Positions 6,928 through 14,658 of a DNA stretch of 60,049 nt are shown piece by piece. The first letter of the stretch is position 1; each line of letters opens with the position of its first letter. The DNA is from Candidatus Campbellbacteria bacterium (lineage in GTDB: Bacteria; Patescibacteriota; Minisyncoccia; Phycocordibacterales; JABAAK01): positions 1-60,049 of the forward strand of contig JAPPQH010000017.1 of NCBI GenBank assembly GCA_028817035.1, in the 5' to 3' direction. The translations under genes and the position numbers were made by a program. Below the pieces are notes generated by a model. That model saw only the letters and a list, made by a program, of their open reading frames with translations. It ran no database searches and was not told where the DNA came from.

Positions 6928-8616
6928 ATGAGTAATAAAAATAATTTATCAAGAATACAATCAGCGTTGATGAAGGCAGAGTCGGTGCTGTCTTCTGCGT
7001 TAAAAGAGGCAGGCTTTTCTGAGGAAGTATTTCTTGAGATACCAAAGGGGATGCAGGGGGATTTTGCAAGCCCTATTGCAATGCGTCTTGCAAAAAGGGG
7101 AGGGAACCCGCTTCAAATCGCTGAGAAGATTGTATCAAAGATAAAGGTTGAAGAACCATTTTCAGATGTGGTTGCGATGAAGCCGGGTTTTATAAACTTT
7201 ACTTTATCTGAAAAAGAAATAGCAGGGGTGGTGAAAGATATAATCGCAAATCCAGACGAGTGGGGGCGGTCTTCTGTATATGACGAGAATAGAATAATTG
7301 TTGAATTCACAGATCCAAACCTTTTCAAAGAATTGCATATAGGTCATTTTATGAGCAACACAATAGGAGAGTCGTTATCTCGCTTTTTTGAGTTTGGTGG
7401 TGCAGATGTAAAAAAAGTTTCTTATATGGCAGACATAGGTCTTCATATAGCTAAATCTATATGGGGAATTAAAAAAGCGGGTTTGTCTGTAGAAGAACTT
7501 ACTTCAGAGAGTTTGGCAGATGCGTATAAGAAAGGGTCAAAAGAGTATGAGGAGGATGAGGGTGCGCGAAGTGAAATAGACGATATAAATGTTTTGATAT
7601 ATGAGAACAAGGATGCAGAAATTACAGCGATTTACAAAAAAGGACACAAAACATCTATGGATGAGTTTGAAGGCTTGTTTGAAATGTTTGGAACAAGGTT
7701 TGACAAGTATTTTTTTGAGTCGGACACGGTTGTGTCTGCTGATAAAATAATAAAAAAGGCGTTAGGTGATGGTATCCTTGAGAAAAGTGAGGGTGCTGTG
7801 GTCTATCGCGGTGTTGGTGAGGGCATGCATACGGTGGTTTTTTTGAACTCCAGAGGGTTTCCAACATACGGGGGAAAAGAATTGGCGCTACCAAAACTCA
7901 AAGATGATTATTGGCAACACAATAAGTCGTTTATTGTAACAGCAAATGAAACAAGGGCGCATTTCAAAACGGTCTTAAGCGCTCTTTCAAAAATAAATAA
8001 AGAGGAGGCAGAAAAAACAAAGATAATATTTCACGGAATATTAAAATTGCCAGAGGGAAAGATGTCATCAAGAAAGGGAACCACTTTTTCTGCAAGACAA
8101 TTTATAGATTCTTTGAGGGAAAAAGTTAAGGGTAAAAGCGATAGAAATCTTAGTGATGAGGATGTGAACGAAATTACTCTTGGGGCTGCGAAATACAGCA
8201 TACTCTCAACATCTTCTCACCTTGATCGCGAGTTTGTTTATGATAAGGCGTTGAGTATAAACGGAGAAACCGGTCCTTATCTGCAATACGCATCTGTGCG
8301 CGCAAGGGTTTTGCTTGAGAAGGCAAAAGAAAGCGATATAAAAATTGAAAACGATTTTTCCATAATCAACCCCACTTTAGCAAGGGAGATAATAAGATTT
8401 GAAGAGGTCGTGAAAGAGAGCATAGTGAAACAATCCCCTCACACTACTCTCAGATATCTCGCGGATCTCGCCCACTCTTTTAATTCTTGGTATGAAAGAG
8501 AGCCAATTCTTAAAAATGACAGAGCGGGGGACTGTCTGGCTCTTGTCCGTGCTTTTTACTCCACGATGAAAAACGGTTGTTATCTGCTCGGCATAAAATT
8601 GCCCAAAGAGATGTAA
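6928..8616 (+). CDS. argS: Arginyl-tRNA synthetase
   Basis: Class I synthetase charging tRNA-Arg. The HIGH signature is exact (H137-I-G-H140) and a KMSSR-type loop is present (K378-M-S-S-R-K-G), a form common in bacterial ArgRS. The N-terminal additional domain and the C-terminal DALR-type anticodon-binding helices (GPYLQYASVRARVL then the terminal NGCYLLGIKLPKEM) are recognisable. Length 562 fits the family. A TAAAAT box at 6915-6920 lies seven bases before the ATG, without a Shine-Dalgarno. Confidence 0.97.
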   Translation: MSNKNNLSRIQSALMKAESVLSSALKEAGFSEEVFLEIPKGMQGDFASPIAMRLAKRGGNPLQIAEKIVSKIKVEEPFSDVVAMKPGFINFTLSEKEIAGVVKDIIANPDEWGRSSVYDENRIIVEFTDPNLFKELHIGHFMSNTIGESLSRFFEFGGADVKKVSYMADIGLHIAKSIWGIKKAGLSVEELTSESLADAYKKGSKEYEEDEGARSEIDDINVLIYENKDAEITAIYKKGHKTSMDEFEGLFEMFGTRFDKYFFESDTVVSADKIIKKALGDGILEKSEGAVVYRGVGEGMHTVVFLNSRGFPTYGGKELALPKLKDDYWQHNKSFIVTANETRAHFKTVLSALSKINKEEAEKTKIIFHGILKLPEGKMSSRKGTTFSARQFIDSLREKVKGKSDRNLSDEDVNEITLGAAKYSILSTSSHLDREFVYDKALSINGETGPYLQYASVRARVLLEKAKESDIKIENDFSIINPTLAREIIRFEEVVKESIVKQSPHTTLRYLADLAHSFNSWYEREPILKNDRAGDCLALVRAFYSTMKNGCYLLGIKLPKEM

Positions 8617-8638
8617 TTTGTTATTATGGTTATTGAAT

Positions 8639-11600
8639 ATGAATTTAGATAATAAGGGAGAATCAGCAAAAAGAGAAGAAGAGATATTATCTTTTTGGGA
8701 AGATAACAATATTTTCAAAAAATCGGAAGAAGGCATAAAGACCAAGAAGGGTTTTTTTGGTTTTCTTAGCAACAAACCTAAAAAATTTGTGTTTCTTGAT
8801 GGTCCTCCATTTGCAAATGGTCTGCCCCATCACGGTCACATATTGCAGAGTTTTATAAAAGACGCTATACCGCGATACAAGACGATGCGTGGGTTTTCTG
8901 TTCCAAGACAGTGGGGCTGGGATTGTCATGGTTTGCCTGTTGAGTATGAAGTTGAGCAGGAATTAAATGTAAATTCAAAAAAGGAAATTGAAGAAAAAAT
9001 TGGGATTGAAAAATTTAACCAGACAGCACGCAGTGGCATAATGAAATATTCACAGGAGTGGGAAAAGACAATTAACAGATTTGGTAGGTTTGTGGATATG
9101 AAAAATGATTACAGAACGCTTGATACCAAATACATAGAGTCGGTCTGGAATGTGTTTTCCAATTTGTATAATAAAAAACTTGTAGATGAAGATTTTCGTG
9201 TAGAACCGCTCTGTCCGAGATGTGAGACAACGCTTTCACATGCTGAAGTGGCGCAGGGGTATATTGATGTGGTTGATACATCTGTTTATCTCAGATTTCC
9301 TATAGTTGATAGGAAGGACACCTCTCTTTTGATATGGACAACAACGCCTTTCACACTGCCTGGAAACACTGCCGTTGCGGTTAATCGCAATTTTGAATAT
9401 GTGGAAGTTTTGCACGAGGGTCATAAATATATAGTCCTTAAAAAACTTGCTAAAAAAATATTTGGTGAAGAAGTAAATGTGGTCTCAACTATTATGGGTA
9501 GTAAATTGGTGGGCTTGGAATACAAACCTCCTTTTGAGACATTTGCAAGAAAGGTATTAAAAGATGATAAGAACGCATTTTTTGTTCATCACGCAGATTT
9601 TGTGTCAGATGAAGATGGAACGGGTCTTGTTCATATCGCTCCTGCTTGTGGTGAAGACGACTTCAATCTGTCTAAAGAAAAGAACATACCTCTTTTGTTG
9701 CACATCTCAACAAACGGTCTGTTTAATGAAGAACTTGGTTTTCTTAAAGGTTGTAAGGCAAAGCAAAAAGAGGAGGGGTCTAAGACGGATGAGAAAATTG
9801 TTGCTTTTTTGAGCGAAAAAGATTTTCTTTTTCGCGAAGAAAAAATAGAGCACTCATATCCACACTGTTGGAGGTGTAAATCTCCTTTGATTTATTATGC
9901 GATATCTTCTTGGTTGGTTGATGTTCCTTCTATAAGAGAAAAAATGGTAAACAATAACAAAAAGGTGCATTGGGTTCCTTCTTCTGTTGGTATGAATAGG
10001 TTTGGAAATTGGCTTAAAGATGCAAAGCCGTGGTGTGTTTCAAGGCAGAGATATTGGGGTGCTCCAATACCTGTATGGAAATCGGAAGATGGGGATGTTC
10101 TCGTCATTGATTCTCTAGCGACATTAAAGAAATACATAAAGAGTTCAAATAATGAATACATCTTTGTAAGACATGGTCAGGCAGTAAATAACACAAAAGG
10201 TGTTTTGTCTTCAACAAACAACACAAACAATGATCTGACAGAGAAAGGAAGAAGTCAGATAGCCAAAACAGCGAAGGAACTTAAAGATAAAAAAATTGAC
10301 TTCTTGTTTTCATCTCCGCTTGACAGAGCACTACAGTCGGCAGAAATTATAGCAAAAGAAAACAATATACCAAAGGAAAATATAATTATTAAAAAAGAAC
10401 TTGCTGAAGTTGATTGGCGGGTTTGTGAAGGCAGACCTGATGAAGAATATTTTAGTCATCTATGCCACCATCATTTTGGTGATGAAGAAAAAATGGAATC
10501 TGCGAGGTCAATTTATCACCGTATCGCATTGCAACTTTATTCCCTTGAGGAAAAATATAAAAATAAAAGGATTGTCTTTGTTTCTCATCATATCCCCATC
10601 GCTTGTGCTTATAGTATTTCATCGGGCATCCTTTCAAGAAACATAGAATCTTTTTACAGGAAAATACACCCACAAAAAGGAGAGCATTGTTATGACATAA
10701 CAAACGCAAGTATAAATAAGATTGATTTTAAGCCATTGCCACACAATAAGTTGTATGAGATTGATCTGCACAGACCATATATTGATAAGCTAAAACTTTA
10801 TGACAAAAACGGTAAGGAATACAAAAAAATTCCTGATGTTTTTGATTGTTGGTTTGAATCAGGCTCTGGTCCATACGCATCCGTCCATTACCCATTTGAT
10901 ACCAGAAGCGATTTTGATCCAAATAAAAAAATAGGATTTCCAGCTGACTTTATAGCAGAAGGGTTGGATCAGACGAGGGGATGGTTTTACTATCTTATGG
11001 TTTTGAGCACGGCTTTGTTTAACTGTGCGCCATTCAAAAATGTTATTATAACCGGTCTTGTGGATGGTGCTGATGGTAAGAAGATGAGTAAAAGTTTGAA
11101 AAATTATACTGATCCAAAGGACATAATAAATAAATATGGAGTGGATGCAATGCGTTATTACATGCTCTCATCTGCTGTTGTTCGCGGTGAGAATATGGCT
11201 TTCTCTGATGATGGCGTTGCCGAAATAGAGAGAAAAATAATAAACAGGTTAAACAACTGTCTTTCTTTTTATAACTTGTATCGCAAAGAAGGTGATGATA
11301 TGGGCGCTAAATCAAACCACCCACTTGATTTGTGGATTGATGCATCCCTTGCAGAGTGTGTTAATAAAATGACAAATTCTTTTGAAAACTACGAGATTGA
11401 CAAGGCGACAAGGGCTATAGGCGATTTGATTGAAGACCTTTCTATATGGTTTTTACGGCGCTCAAGGGGTCGTTTGAAGGGAAAAGAAGGGGAAACAGAA
11501 GCGGCAGTCGCAAGGGGTGTTCTCAAAAGAGCGCTTTATAACATTTCTCTTTTGTCAGCGCCGATAATACCTTTCTATTCGGAATATTTGTATAGATCAC

Positions 11601-12148
11601 TTAAAGAAAGTGATGACGCAGAGAGCGTTCATCTGAAGCAATGGCCTTCGTTTTCTAAATTTGATGCAAAACTGCTTCTTGAAATGAAAAAAGCAAGAGA
11701 AATAGTAAGCAAGGCGCTTTTGTTGAGAGATGAATCCAAAATAAAAGTTCGTCAGCCACTTCAGTCGCTCTCGGTGAGGGAGGACTTGATGGTTTCTGAC
11801 AAATTAGCAGAAATTATAAAAGATGAGGTAAATGTAAAAGAGGTTGTGTCTCATAAAAAGGGCGATGAGGTAGTGTTGAACACAGAATTGAATGACTTAC
11901 TTCTTCGCGAAGGCGCGGTTCGTGAAATTGCAAGGGCAGTCCAGTCCATGAGAAAAAAGCAGGGCAAAAAACCTTCTGATAAAGTTGTGTTGTGTATAGA
12001 TGCATCAGACGACATCAAACTGGCTATAGAGGAGCATAAAAAATATCTTGTTGAGACGGCTGGGTTAAGCAGTATTGATTTCACACACAACAAAGGAGTT
12101 GAAAAAATAAAAGTGGGAGAAGGGTCGGTTATCATAGATATTAAATAA
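8639..12148 (+). CDS. ileS: Isoleucyl-tRNA synthetase with an embedded histidine-phosphatase domain
   Basis: Class I synthetase for tRNA-Ile: HHGH at 64-67, editing domain, zinc-type CPRC and CWRC pairs, SRQRYWGAPIPVW, and KMSKS at 815-819. The unusual part lies between the PIPVW segment and DLHRPYIDKLKLY. About 190 extra residues (roughly 500-690, bases 10140-10730) form a phosphoglycerate-mutase/histidine-phosphatase domain: FVRHGQ with H512, SSPLDRALQSAEII with R563, an acidic ELAEVDWRVCEG motif, and FVSHH with H650. All expected catalytic residues are present. The frame is continuous, so this is a real in-frame insertion. The ATG at 8639 is chosen over an upstream TTG. Ends overlapping recO by one base. 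Confidence 0.95.
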   Translation: MNLDNKGESAKREEEILSFWEDNNIFKKSEEGIKTKKGFFGFLSNKPKKFVFLDGPPFANGLPHHGHILQSFIKDAIPRYKTMRGFSVPRQWGWDCHGLPVEYEVEQELNVNSKKEIEEKIGIEKFNQTARSGIMKYSQEWEKTINRFGRFVDMKNDYRTLDTKYIESVWNVFSNLYNKKLVDEDFRVEPLCPRCETTLSHAEVAQGYIDVVDTSVYLRFPIVDRKDTSLLIWTTTPFTLPGNTAVAVNRNFEYVEVLHEGHKYIVLKKLAKKIFGEEVNVVSTIMGSKLVGLEYKPPFETFARKVLKDDKNAFFVHHADFVSDEDGTGLVHIAPACGEDDFNLSKEKNIPLLLHISTNGLFNEELGFLKGCKAKQKEEGSKTDEKIVAFLSEKDFLFREEKIEHSYPHCWRCKSPLIYYAISSWLVDVPSIREKMVNNNKKVHWVPSSVGMNRFGNWLKDAKPWCVSRQRYWGAPIPVWKSEDGDVLVIDSLATLKKYIKSSNNEYIFVRHGQAVNNTKGVLSSTNNTNNDLTEKGRSQIAKTAKELKDKKIDFLFSSPLDRALQSAEIIAKENNIPKENIIIKKELAEVDWRVCEGRPDEEYFSHLCHHHFGDEEKMESARSIYHRIALQLYSLEEKYKNKRIVFVSHHIPIACAYSISSGILSRNIESFYRKIHPQKGEHCYDITNASINKIDFKPLPHNKLYEIDLHRPYIDKLKLYDKNGKEYKKIPDVFDCWFESGSGPYASVHYPFDTRSDFDPNKKIGFPADFIAEGLDQTRGWFYYLMVLSTALFNCAPFKNVIITGLVDGADGKKMSKSLKNYTDPKDIINKYGVDAMRYYMLSSAVVRGENMAFSDDGVAEIERKIINRLNNCLSFYNLYRKEGDDMGAKSNHPLDLWIDASLAECVNKMTNSFENYEIDKATRAIGDLIEDLSIWFLRRSRGRLKGKEGETEAAVARGVLKRALYNISLLSAPIIPFYSEYLYRSLKESDDAESVHLKQWPSFSKFDAKLLLEMKKAREIVSKALLLRDESKIKVRQPLQSLSVREDLMVSDKLAEIIKDEVNVKEVVSHKKGDEVVLNTELNDLLLREGAVREIARAVQSMRKKQGKKPSDKVVLCIDASDDIKLAIEEHKKYLVETAGLSSIDFTHNKGVEKIKVGEGSVIIDIK
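10140..10730 (+). other. Histidine-phosphatase domain inserted in ileS
   Basis: Marks the insertion inside the IleRS catalytic region. It has the RHG motif near 10169, the second arginine near 10325, the Glu-containing motif near 10405 and the SHH motif near 10583. Flanking sequences are normal IleRS on both sides. Its substrate cannot be read from the sequence. Confidence 0.88.
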
Positions 12149-12726
12149 TGTCACACCAGATACAAACCACCAAAGCATTTGTCATAAATTCACATGAAAG
12201 AGGTGAAGCAGATAAAATGTTTGTTTTGTATACCGAGCTTCTTGGACTTGTATATGTTGATGCAAAGGGGATAAGAAAGGAGAGCTCAAAACTTCGTTCT
12301 TTCCTAAACTCAACAGGGTTGTTTGTGGCTGAGTTGTTGCCTGTGCGGAGTGGCTACAGAATAGTGGGCGCTTCTGGTACTCATTCTATGTCGGAATTTT
12401 TATCTTCTGAAAATAGAGCCGCATTTGCGAGGATACTTAACTTGTTCTCAAAACTGGTCTACAATTCACTCAAAGACGAGAAACTTTTTTATATATTGTC
12501 AGATTCGCACAACCTTCTTGTCTCTGCCGAGTTTGAGGATGTTGAGTCGCTTGAGTGCGTTTGTGTTGCGAGGATGCTTGAGCGGCTTGGGTACTTTCCC
12601 CGCGATAAATCGCCGCTTATCTTTGAAAACAGCATAGAAGTTGTCAAGCAGAGATTGAGGGATGTGAATACACGCCGAAAGGTAATCAGCGAAATAAACG
12701 AAATTATGTATGAATTGCACTCATAA
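12148..12726 (+). CDS. recO: DNA repair protein RecO (short form)
   Basis: RecO helps load RecA onto SSB-coated DNA with RecR. The N-terminal OB-fold has the family pattern: TTKAFVINSHERGEADKMFVLYTELLG, then YVDAKGIRKESSKLRSFLN. The helical region continues with LECVCVARMLERLGYFP. At 192 residues it is shorter than the usual 230-250 and lacks the Cys-rich zinc region of many RecO proteins. The ATG shares one base with the ileS stop, so translation is probably coupled. The call rests on the N-terminal pattern. Confidence 0.82.
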   Translation: MSHQIQTTKAFVINSHERGEADKMFVLYTELLGLVYVDAKGIRKESSKLRSFLNSTGLFVAELLPVRSGYRIVGASGTHSMSEFLSSENRAAFARILNLFSKLVYNSLKDEKLFYILSDSHNLLVSAEFEDVESLECVCVARMLERLGYFPRDKSPLIFENSIEVVKQRLRDVNTRRKVISEINEIMYELHS

Positions 12727-12762: not shown

Positions 12763-14658
12763 ATGCCACGCAAAATAAAGAAAATAAAGAAGAAACTTAA
12801 TTTTGATTTCTCTGCTCGTGCGCGAGATCAGAGAATAGACCTTTATCATCCCAAAAGAAAAACGATGAAAAGAAAATGGGAGACTGAGAACAAAAAAGGT
12901 TCGTTAATCAATAGGTATGGCAGGTTTCTTCCCATGCTTTTTATGCTCACATTTGGGTTTTTCCTTGCCGCTTTGGTTTTCTATTTTCTTTTTAGCGGAA
13001 GACAAAATATCTCAAGTGAAAATATAGAAATAGAAATTCGCGGTCCTGTTTTTGTCACTTCAGGTGGAGAGACACCCATCAATATATCAATCACCAATGA
13101 CAACTCCATACCCATAGAATTTGCTGACCTTGTTATCAATTATCCGTCTGGCACCAAGTCAAGCAAAGACAATACAACACTCCTTACAAGAGAAAGGAAG
13201 GGACTTGGATCAATAGAACCAGAAGAAACAAAGACAGCAGTAATTAATCCAATAATCTATGGTTCTGCAGGCTCATCACAGGAAATTGTTATCGGTCTTG
13301 ACTATCGTCTAAGTGGTTCAAACGCCCAATTCGCAATTGAAAAGCCATACAATGTTTCAATACAGTCCTCACCAATCGCGCTCATTGTTCGCGGAACAAA
13401 GAGAGTCATATCTGATGAGAATTTTCCTTTAGAAGTGGAGATTAAATCAAACTCACAAAATACAATAGACGACTTGGTGTTGGTCCTTGAATATCCGTTT
13501 GGTTACAAATTCCTTAGGTCAAACAGAAGTTCAAGATTTCAGAATACTTTATGGGAAATAGGTCGTCTGAATGAGGGTCAAAATAGGGTTATCAATATAT
13601 CTGGGGCATTAACTGGAAATAATAACGAAGAGAGAACATTTAGATTTCGTTTAGGTGTCGCAGACCCAGTAGACAAAAAGAGGATAGGCTCTCTGATAGC
13701 AGAAGAAACACACTCCATCGTTATTGATCGTCCTTTCATAGAGTTACAACTCACATTGAACCAAAACGCAGATGACACACACATCATAGACGAAGGCACA
13801 GAAGTGAAAGGGGTTCTGTGGTGGGTAAATAATACACAAAATACCATAAGAGATGTAGAAATAATCCTTTCACTTGCAGGAAACGGTTTGAACAAAACTT
13901 CTGTCAGAGTTCCTGATGGTTTCTATGATGAAAAAGAAGACACAATTCTTTGGTCAAGAGATACACACCCAGAGTTAAGAACAATCGCATCTAACGGCAG
14001 GGGAAATGTGGAGTTCTCATTTTCTGTTGTTGAAGATGATCCAATCAGAAAACTCACAAACCGTTCTGTAGATTTATCAATAGATGTTAGTGGCATAAGA
14101 GATGACGGAACAAACCAAGCGAAAAAAATAGAAGGTTCAATAAAGAGAAATCTAAAATTGACTTCAGAGGTGTCTCTCTTCTCACGCTCCGTTTATTCTG
14201 ACGGACCTTTTCAAAATGAAGGTCCTATACCTCCTAAAGTAGGTGAAAAAACAACATACACAATTTCATTGATAGCGAGAAACTCGTCAAACACTATGAG
14301 GAACACAGTTTTAACATCTACTCTTCCGTTTTATGTTAATTTTGAGAAGGGTATTCTTCCAGAGAACGAGGATGCCACATACGATGAGGATACAAGAACT
14401 ATAAGATGGAACATACAAGAGCTTGGGGCAAATACTTTTGACAACTCCAGAGAAATTTCATTCCAAGTTTCAATAACACCAACGATATCCCAGTTGGGTG
14501 AGCCACCAGTTTTGTTAAACAATCAAAGGTTTGATTCATTTGATATATTCACAGGAAAGCCCATAAGACTTGATTTTCCACCCATAACGACTGAGATAAG
14601 GGGCGATCTTATATATAGGAGGGGAATAGGAAATGTGACATCAGATGGTGATTTGTGA
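12763..14658 (+). CDS. Membrane-anchored surface protein with Ig-like repeats
   Basis: Function unknown. The N-terminal 45 residues are very basic (PRKIKKIKKKL...), followed by one transmembrane helix at about 49-72 (LPMLFMLTFGFFLAALVFYFLF). The long remainder is beta-rich and outside the membrane. It contains several segments of the type ISITNDNSIPIEFADLVINYP and ARNSSNTMRNTVLTSTLP, which resemble DUF11/CARDB immunoglobulin-like repeats of surface proteins. It is not a lipoprotein and shows no sorting signal. TATACT at 12744-12749 lies 13 bases before the ATG. Likely a cell-envelope protein of CPR type. Confidence 0.78.
   Translation: MPRKIKKIKKKLNFDFSARARDQRIDLYHPKRKTMKRKWETENKKGSLINRYGRFLPMLFMLTFGFFLAALVFYFLFSGRQNISSENIEIEIRGPVFVTSGGETPINISITNDNSIPIEFADLVINYPSGTKSSKDNTTLLTRERKGLGSIEPEETKTAVINPIIYGSAGSSQEIVIGLDYRLSGSNAQFAIEKPYNVSIQSSPIALIVRGTKRVISDENFPLEVEIKSNSQNTIDDLVLVLEYPFGYKFLRSNRSSRFQNTLWEIGRLNEGQNRVINISGALTGNNNEERTFRFRLGVADPVDKKRIGSLIAEETHSIVIDRPFIELQLTLNQNADDTHIIDEGTEVKGVLWWVNNTQNTIRDVEIILSLAGNGLNKTSVRVPDGFYDEKEDTILWSRDTHPELRTIASNGRGNVEFSFSVVEDDPIRKLTNRSVDLSIDVSGIRDDGTNQAKKIEGSIKRNLKLTSEVSLFSRSVYSDGPFQNEGPIPPKVGEKTTYTISLIARNSSNTMRNTVLTSTLPFYVNFEKGILPENEDATYDEDTRTIRWNIQELGANTFDNSREISFQVSITPTISQLGEPPVLLNNQRFDSFDIFTGKPIRLDFPPITTEIRGDLIYRRGIGNVTSDGDL

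Follow-up and report, generated by a model that had tools for sequence, protein, structure and literature searches.

That aminoacyl-tRNA synthetases can carry extra domains is well established. In the class I enzymes for isoleucine, valine, and leucine, the CP1 editing domain is a hydrolase set into the Rossmann fold, and synthetase editing domains have been described as inserting exclusively into synthetases (PMC13114784). A second small-molecule enzyme is also carried by the isoleucyl-tRNA synthetases (IleRS) of NCBIfam NF040702 (ileS_w_GNAT), in which that enzyme is an N-acetyltransferase. The type-2 (eukaryote-like) enzymes of Priestia megaterium (IleRS2; 8c9d) and yeast (8wnd) have no phosphatase, and the branch-1 histidine phosphatases (HPs; PF00300) PspA of Hydrogenobacter (4ij5), PhoE (1h2e), and CobC are stand-alone enzymes. 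The SB-203208 enzymes SbzA (IleRS-like) and SbzC (GNAT) were considered as an embedding precedent and set aside because they are separate proteins. In the open-access literature, no report of an HP in a synthetase was found; automatic annotation of the architecture may exist. The IleRS with an embedded HP (IleRS-HP) analyzed here is real and widespread, its catalytic residues are constrained, and it appears to be undescribed so far.

The window, i.e., the whole 60,049-nucleotide stretch of DNA analyzed, comes from a Patescibacteria genome of 566 kb and 97% completeness, in agreement with the CPR origin assumed in the first-pass annotation, which had been made from the letters alone. A type-2 IleRS of 1176 aa is encoded on the forward strand at positions 8618 to 12148, with a TTG start or an inner ATG at 8639. 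This frame scored 852 bits against the NCBIfam ileS equivalog (TIGR00392; cut-off, 621), contained the editing and anticodon domains, and had a type-2 IleRS as its best solved match. Its motifs were located intact around the insert, as first noted, with HHGH at 71, KMSKS at 822, and the two Cys pairs at 199 (CPRC) and 417 (CWRC), and the class I catalytic domain appeared in Pfam as two halves split by His_Phos_1. The gene order in the window was a gene reading as DNA ligase, ArgRS (6928 to 8616, forward strand; directly upstream in the same operon), IleRS-HP, and RecO (12148 to 12726, forward strand; directly downstream). Adjoining this operon, positions 12763 to 14658 encode a large protein that is membrane anchored and matches DUF11 weakly, and similar neighbors seem to be placed after RecO in relatives too. 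The embedded HP was the sole histidine phosphatase in the genome.

The whole insert (10130 to 10762, residues about 505 to 715; this and all following features are on the forward strand) consists of a linker, a complete branch-1 HP, and a conserved C-terminal linker, and it lies between WGAPIPVW and DLHRPYID, ending before the latter. An in-frame insert of ∼190 residues had been reported at this place, and the lengths bear this out, since the span from ISRxRYW to DCWFESG measured 261 to 266 residues with the insert versus 67 to 76 in insert-free relatives. By our reading, the HP is placed in the connective region of the type-2 IleRS, which we take to be CP2. The Pfam His_Phos_1 domain covers 10160 to 10630 (residues 515 to 671; E value, 3.5e-28), with 99 bits for PF00300 against a cut-off of 21.7, and the active-site set of this family (R518, H519, G520, R570, E597, and H657) was present. 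It comprises the RHG motif (10169 to 10177, residues 518 to 520) with His519 as the expected phospho-accepting nucleophile, SSPLDRA (10310 to 10330, from residue 565) with Arg570 for phosphate binding, Glu597 within LAEV (10406 to 10408) as the aligned catalytic acid, and SHH (10583 to 10591, residues 656 to 658) with His657 as the second catalytic histidine. The first-pass annotation had named the RHG, SSPLDRA, and SHH residues correctly, its H512, R563, and H650 being the same residues numbered seven lower from the inner ATG at 8639; it erred in taking WRVCEG for the acidic motif, as the aligned acid is E597 directly before it, which 110 of the 113 embedded domains retain. The HP is connected to DLHRPYID by the C-terminal linker PLPHNxxYEID (10724 to 10762), in which P708 and E714 hardly vary; the linker is conserved as PLPHNxxYELDLHRPYID.

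Structure prediction, proposed as a check for a phosphoglycerate-mutase fold, yielded an HP fold of high confidence in which the junctions are ordered. The AlphaFold2 model of the full IleRS-HP (62 sequences) had a pLDDT of 89.1 and a pTM of 0.84; pLDDT was high at the two junctions, and the only low values in the insert fell in two variable loops. The HP alone reached 87.9 and 0.87, respectively. Because the junctions are ordered and conserved, the HP is probably docked on the synthetase rather than loosely tethered. The HP model has the superfamily alpha/beta fold and matched the structures of PspA (4ij5), PhoE (1h2e), TIGAR, and CobC, with a TM of about 0.72, in agreement with the sequence profiles (PspA E value, 4.6e-30); the closest relatives of known structure were PspA, a phosphoserine phosphatase, and PhoE. 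None of the NCBIfam subfamily cut-offs searched (PspA, CobC, GpmB, SixA, and archaeal dPGM) was passed, the scores being 92.5 versus 225 for archaeal dPGM (the best), 68.7 versus 350 for PspA, and 52.3 versus 162.9 for CobC.

The R/H/R/E/H core was complete in 110/113 embedded HP domains, with the RHG Arg and His and the second Arg in all 113, the acid in 110, and the C-terminal His in 112, in a set collected by an HP profile, from which strongly decayed copies could escape. In the census of the order, where frames were chosen by the IleRS half alone, the core residues were complete in 51/51 HPs. Among 77 aligned IleRS, the HP columns conserved at ≥97% were N512, R518, H519, G520, N525, G544, S566, R570, E597, E627, R635, H657, P708, and E714, and the median HP column had its top residue at only 49%. 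Mean identity was 0.40 for the HP versus 0.51 for the synthetase overall. These near-invariant columns are the active site (R518, H519, R570, E597, E627, and H657) plus a few structural or junction residues, with N512, P708, and E714 located at junctions. Judged from these alignments, the HP active site is intact and strongly constrained; loss of the His/Arg/His residues in related copies, named earlier as the sign of a noncatalytic spacer, was looked for, and the residues were kept instead. A spacer or pseudo-domain is thus unlikely, since the near-invariant residues are the active-site set.

The search of CPR genomes suggested at the outset recovered the embedded HP in dozens of independent genomes. 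Within the order, 60 genomes yielded IleRS from 58, of which 55 were readable across the site (three cut-off frames were left uncounted), and 51 of these 55 carried the HP at the same site. The insert-free IleRS belonged to four genomes (G400, G428, G406, and G429). A search for HPs found none anywhere in G406 and G429 or in another class member (G205), so the HP function seems dispensable or replaceable. In a 145-genome sample of the phylum, the HP was present in 8/8 other class members yielding IleRS and in 12 of about 117 IleRS outside the class, and a 380-genome sample included class members without the insert (G349, G332, and G274). Scanning 84,980 species genomes for the HP-DLHRP junction returned 282 confirmed places, of which the best 80 were all from Patescibacteria-type or unnamed bacterial MAGs, the complete chromosome CP011209.1 of a Wolfebacterium among them. 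A single-sequence query with the insert found no relatives in viral contigs. Two IleRS frames in the search output had one in-frame stop (L057 and L071; TAG in G430 and TAA in G402).

The same kind of domain also occurred at other places. In IleRS, HPs were found at a second site after DLHK (L032 to L034, L035, and L148 to L150), a third after DCWFESG (L035), and a fourth near the anticodon domain (L035 and L040), with the L035 protein carrying three HP domains at once. Valyl-tRNA synthetases (ValRS) with one or two HPs each numbered ten proteins from ten genomes, and the HP was placed either in the interval from WGxPIP to DTWFSS or after the latter motif. This gives six site-and-host combinations (four IleRS sites and two ValRS sites), and among the long frames read, interior HP insertion was confined to IleRS and ValRS. 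Together with the operon-linked stand-alone copies described below, these insertions support the earlier argument against a random one-off fusion. In the long frames that had an HP but no synthetase, the HP was fused to the C terminus of a VTT or MFS membrane protein, which indicates that the HP family is not bound to synthetases; such VTT (DedA-like) and MFS proteins were seen in other Patescibacteria (L039, L048, and L047). One genome of the same order (G223) had the HP in both IleRS and ValRS (L014 and L037). Other enzymes were observed as well: a ValRS (L044:1327-5157, G229) contained a HAD-like domain in the editing region, a serine hydrolase (PF06821), and an HP; an IleRS (L040:2638-6990, G046) had a GNAT acetyltransferase at one site and an HP at another; and a further IleRS (L172:2342-6517) had an extra C-terminal HD domain besides the usual HP.

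In three class members with insert-free IleRS, a stand-alone HP gene was situated between ArgRS and IleRS, with gaps of 1 to 14 bp in L151 and L152; the stand-alone HP gene was 4 to 14 bp upstream of IleRS, in the same operon. In L153, ArgRS is followed by a stand-alone HP and an insert-free IleRS, the latter two being separated by a short gene that by eye resembles one for an HD-type hydrolase. In the HP tree, the stand-alone operon HPs fell mostly among embedded domains. The insert-free IleRS of G406 has SLPQNENGEPDLHKPYID at the position where relatives read PLPHNxNYELDLHRPYID, a stretch that, by our reading, resembles what an excised HP would leave behind.

Comparing insert presence with the IleRS phylogeny, as had been proposed, showed that the HP label needed 17 changes on a tree of 124 IleRS cores. 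The four insert-free members of the order sit apart on this tree, a placement that fits repeated HP loss within the order. The IleRS cores of the order formed two clades (a single clade was rejected; dlnL, 152; p-AU, 0.00012), and the HPs from the same genomes clustered together (SH-aLRT, 92) in quick trees in which the HP grouping used 200 columns and representatives were picked after the first tree had been seen. Thus, the same HP lineage appears at the same site in two IleRS backbones, and on these trees the histories of HP and IleRS core differ. The correlation of HP and IleRS distances was weak overall (Spearman, 0.17; 0/1000 permutations).

The best reading of these data, to which we assign a probability of roughly 50%, is that the insert would be an active phosphomonoesterase functionally tied to the Ile/Val-tRNA synthetase. 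Histidine phosphatases act on a terminal phosphate through a nucleophilic His. By this family chemistry, a branch-1 HP of the PspA/PhoE/CobC kind, built into the type-2 IleRS connective region, would use His519 to attack a phosphomonoester held by Arg518, Arg570, and His657, Glu597 would protonate the leaving group, and the phosphohistidine would then be hydrolyzed, with the phosphatase work coupled to the synthetase. We infer that the phosphatase is active because its active-site residues are constrained, while the coupling is suggested by the restriction to IleRS and ValRS hosts, the operon linkage, and the two IleRS backbones.

The main rival, which we regard as possible but rather doubtful, is a general housekeeping phosphatase acting on unrelated metabolites and merely parked in IleRS and ValRS, where insertion into the connective loops is tolerated and expression from the operon is steady. 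Relatives with the HP fold use varied small substrates, other enzymes have entered these synthetases too (GNAT in L040, HAD and serine hydrolase in L044, and HD at the C terminus in L172), and some genomes keep a stand-alone HP, all of which would suit such parking; however, no other large protein among the long frames read has an interior HP, the conserved and ordered linkers suggest fixed docking, and one HP lineage occupies the same site in two IleRS backbones. It is improbable that the domain is noncatalytic and binds a phosphate or nucleotide in order to regulate the synthetase or to make contact with tRNA. The conserved linkers would suit a docked regulator, and embedded copies vary at the glycine that follows the second His, which is often replaced by E, D, or A, but a mere binder would have no need for both histidines and the acid, and 110/113 domains retain the nucleophilic His together with the two core Arg, the acid, and the second His.

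That the embedded HP serves as the glycolytic phosphoglycerate mutase of the cell is very improbable: archaeal dPGM is its best NCBIfam neighbor, yet the 92.5 bits stay far under the cut-off of 225, and this role was rejected because neither enolase nor a metalloenzyme-type PGM was found when sought in the 97% complete genome, from which lower glycolysis appears to be absent. An assembly or gene-calling artifact, or an intein-like element removed from the protein, has a negligible chance of being correct, given a frame that stays free of stops in scores of genomes (the complete chromosome CP011209.1 among them) and junctions (KKYIKSSNNEYIFVRHG ... YEIDLHRP) that by eye show no Cys/Ser start and no His-Asn end.

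The first-pass annotation had proposed a phosphatase or esterase tied to isoleucylation, acting for example on a nucleotide, an aminoacyl-AMP by-product, or a stress nucleotide; the data support the intact fold and active site and the nonrandom association, and leave these targets as candidates. For the coupled phosphomonoesterase, our first choice of substrate would be AMP or another adenylate-type nucleotide made or met by the synthetase, a guess that is unlikely to be right in itself. Histidine phosphatases favor terminal phosphates and fit aminoacyl-AMP itself poorly, so AMP is the better guess of the two. A single HIT protein and a single RelA/SpoT are encoded in the genome, and adenylate clean-up therefore has another candidate in the HIT protein; Hint-like and ppGpp roles of the HP are both candidates on these data. 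Precedent in principle is offered by the hydrolase HinT, reported to act on lysyl-AMP made by lysyl-tRNA synthetase (Chou and Wagner 2007, as cited in PMC3130732), which we take as a functional lead only: HinT is a separate protein with a HIT fold, whereas the HP of the window is embedded. More speculatively still, the Ile- and Val-tRNA synthetases of Patescibacteria may be a recurrent landing place for small enzymes (counting the HP at six site-and-host combinations plus GNAT, HAD, serine hydrolase, and HD), and these enzymes would form a new layer of quality control or detoxification that acts on the intermediates, products, or inhibitors of isoleucyl and valyl activation. Coupling of the two activities, if real, would reveal that aminoacylation has a new side reaction or a new point of control in these reduced and host-dependent bacteria, which form a very large group. 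IleRS-HP can be tested directly, as a single protein with a single point mutation.

Compared with known systems, the window IleRS shares its whole architecture with 8c9d and 8wnd, including HxGH, KMSKS, the editing region, and the C-terminal domain. It scored 331 against NF040702 (cut-off, 1999) with no GNAT match, its second enzyme being a phosphatase. The HP shares fold, RHG, second Arg, acid, and second His with PspA, PhoE, and CobC but is embedded in an aminoacyl-tRNA synthetase. The CP1 editing domain, a hydrolase likewise set into the Rossmann fold, is ancient, differs from the HP in fold and chemistry, and remains in the window IleRS beside it. In the open-access literature, no earlier description was found of a phosphatase that, throughout a bacterial lineage, sits within the catalytic fold of an essential synthetase with its active site fully constrained, and that has been gained repeatedly in two paralogous synthetases, here IleRS and ValRS.
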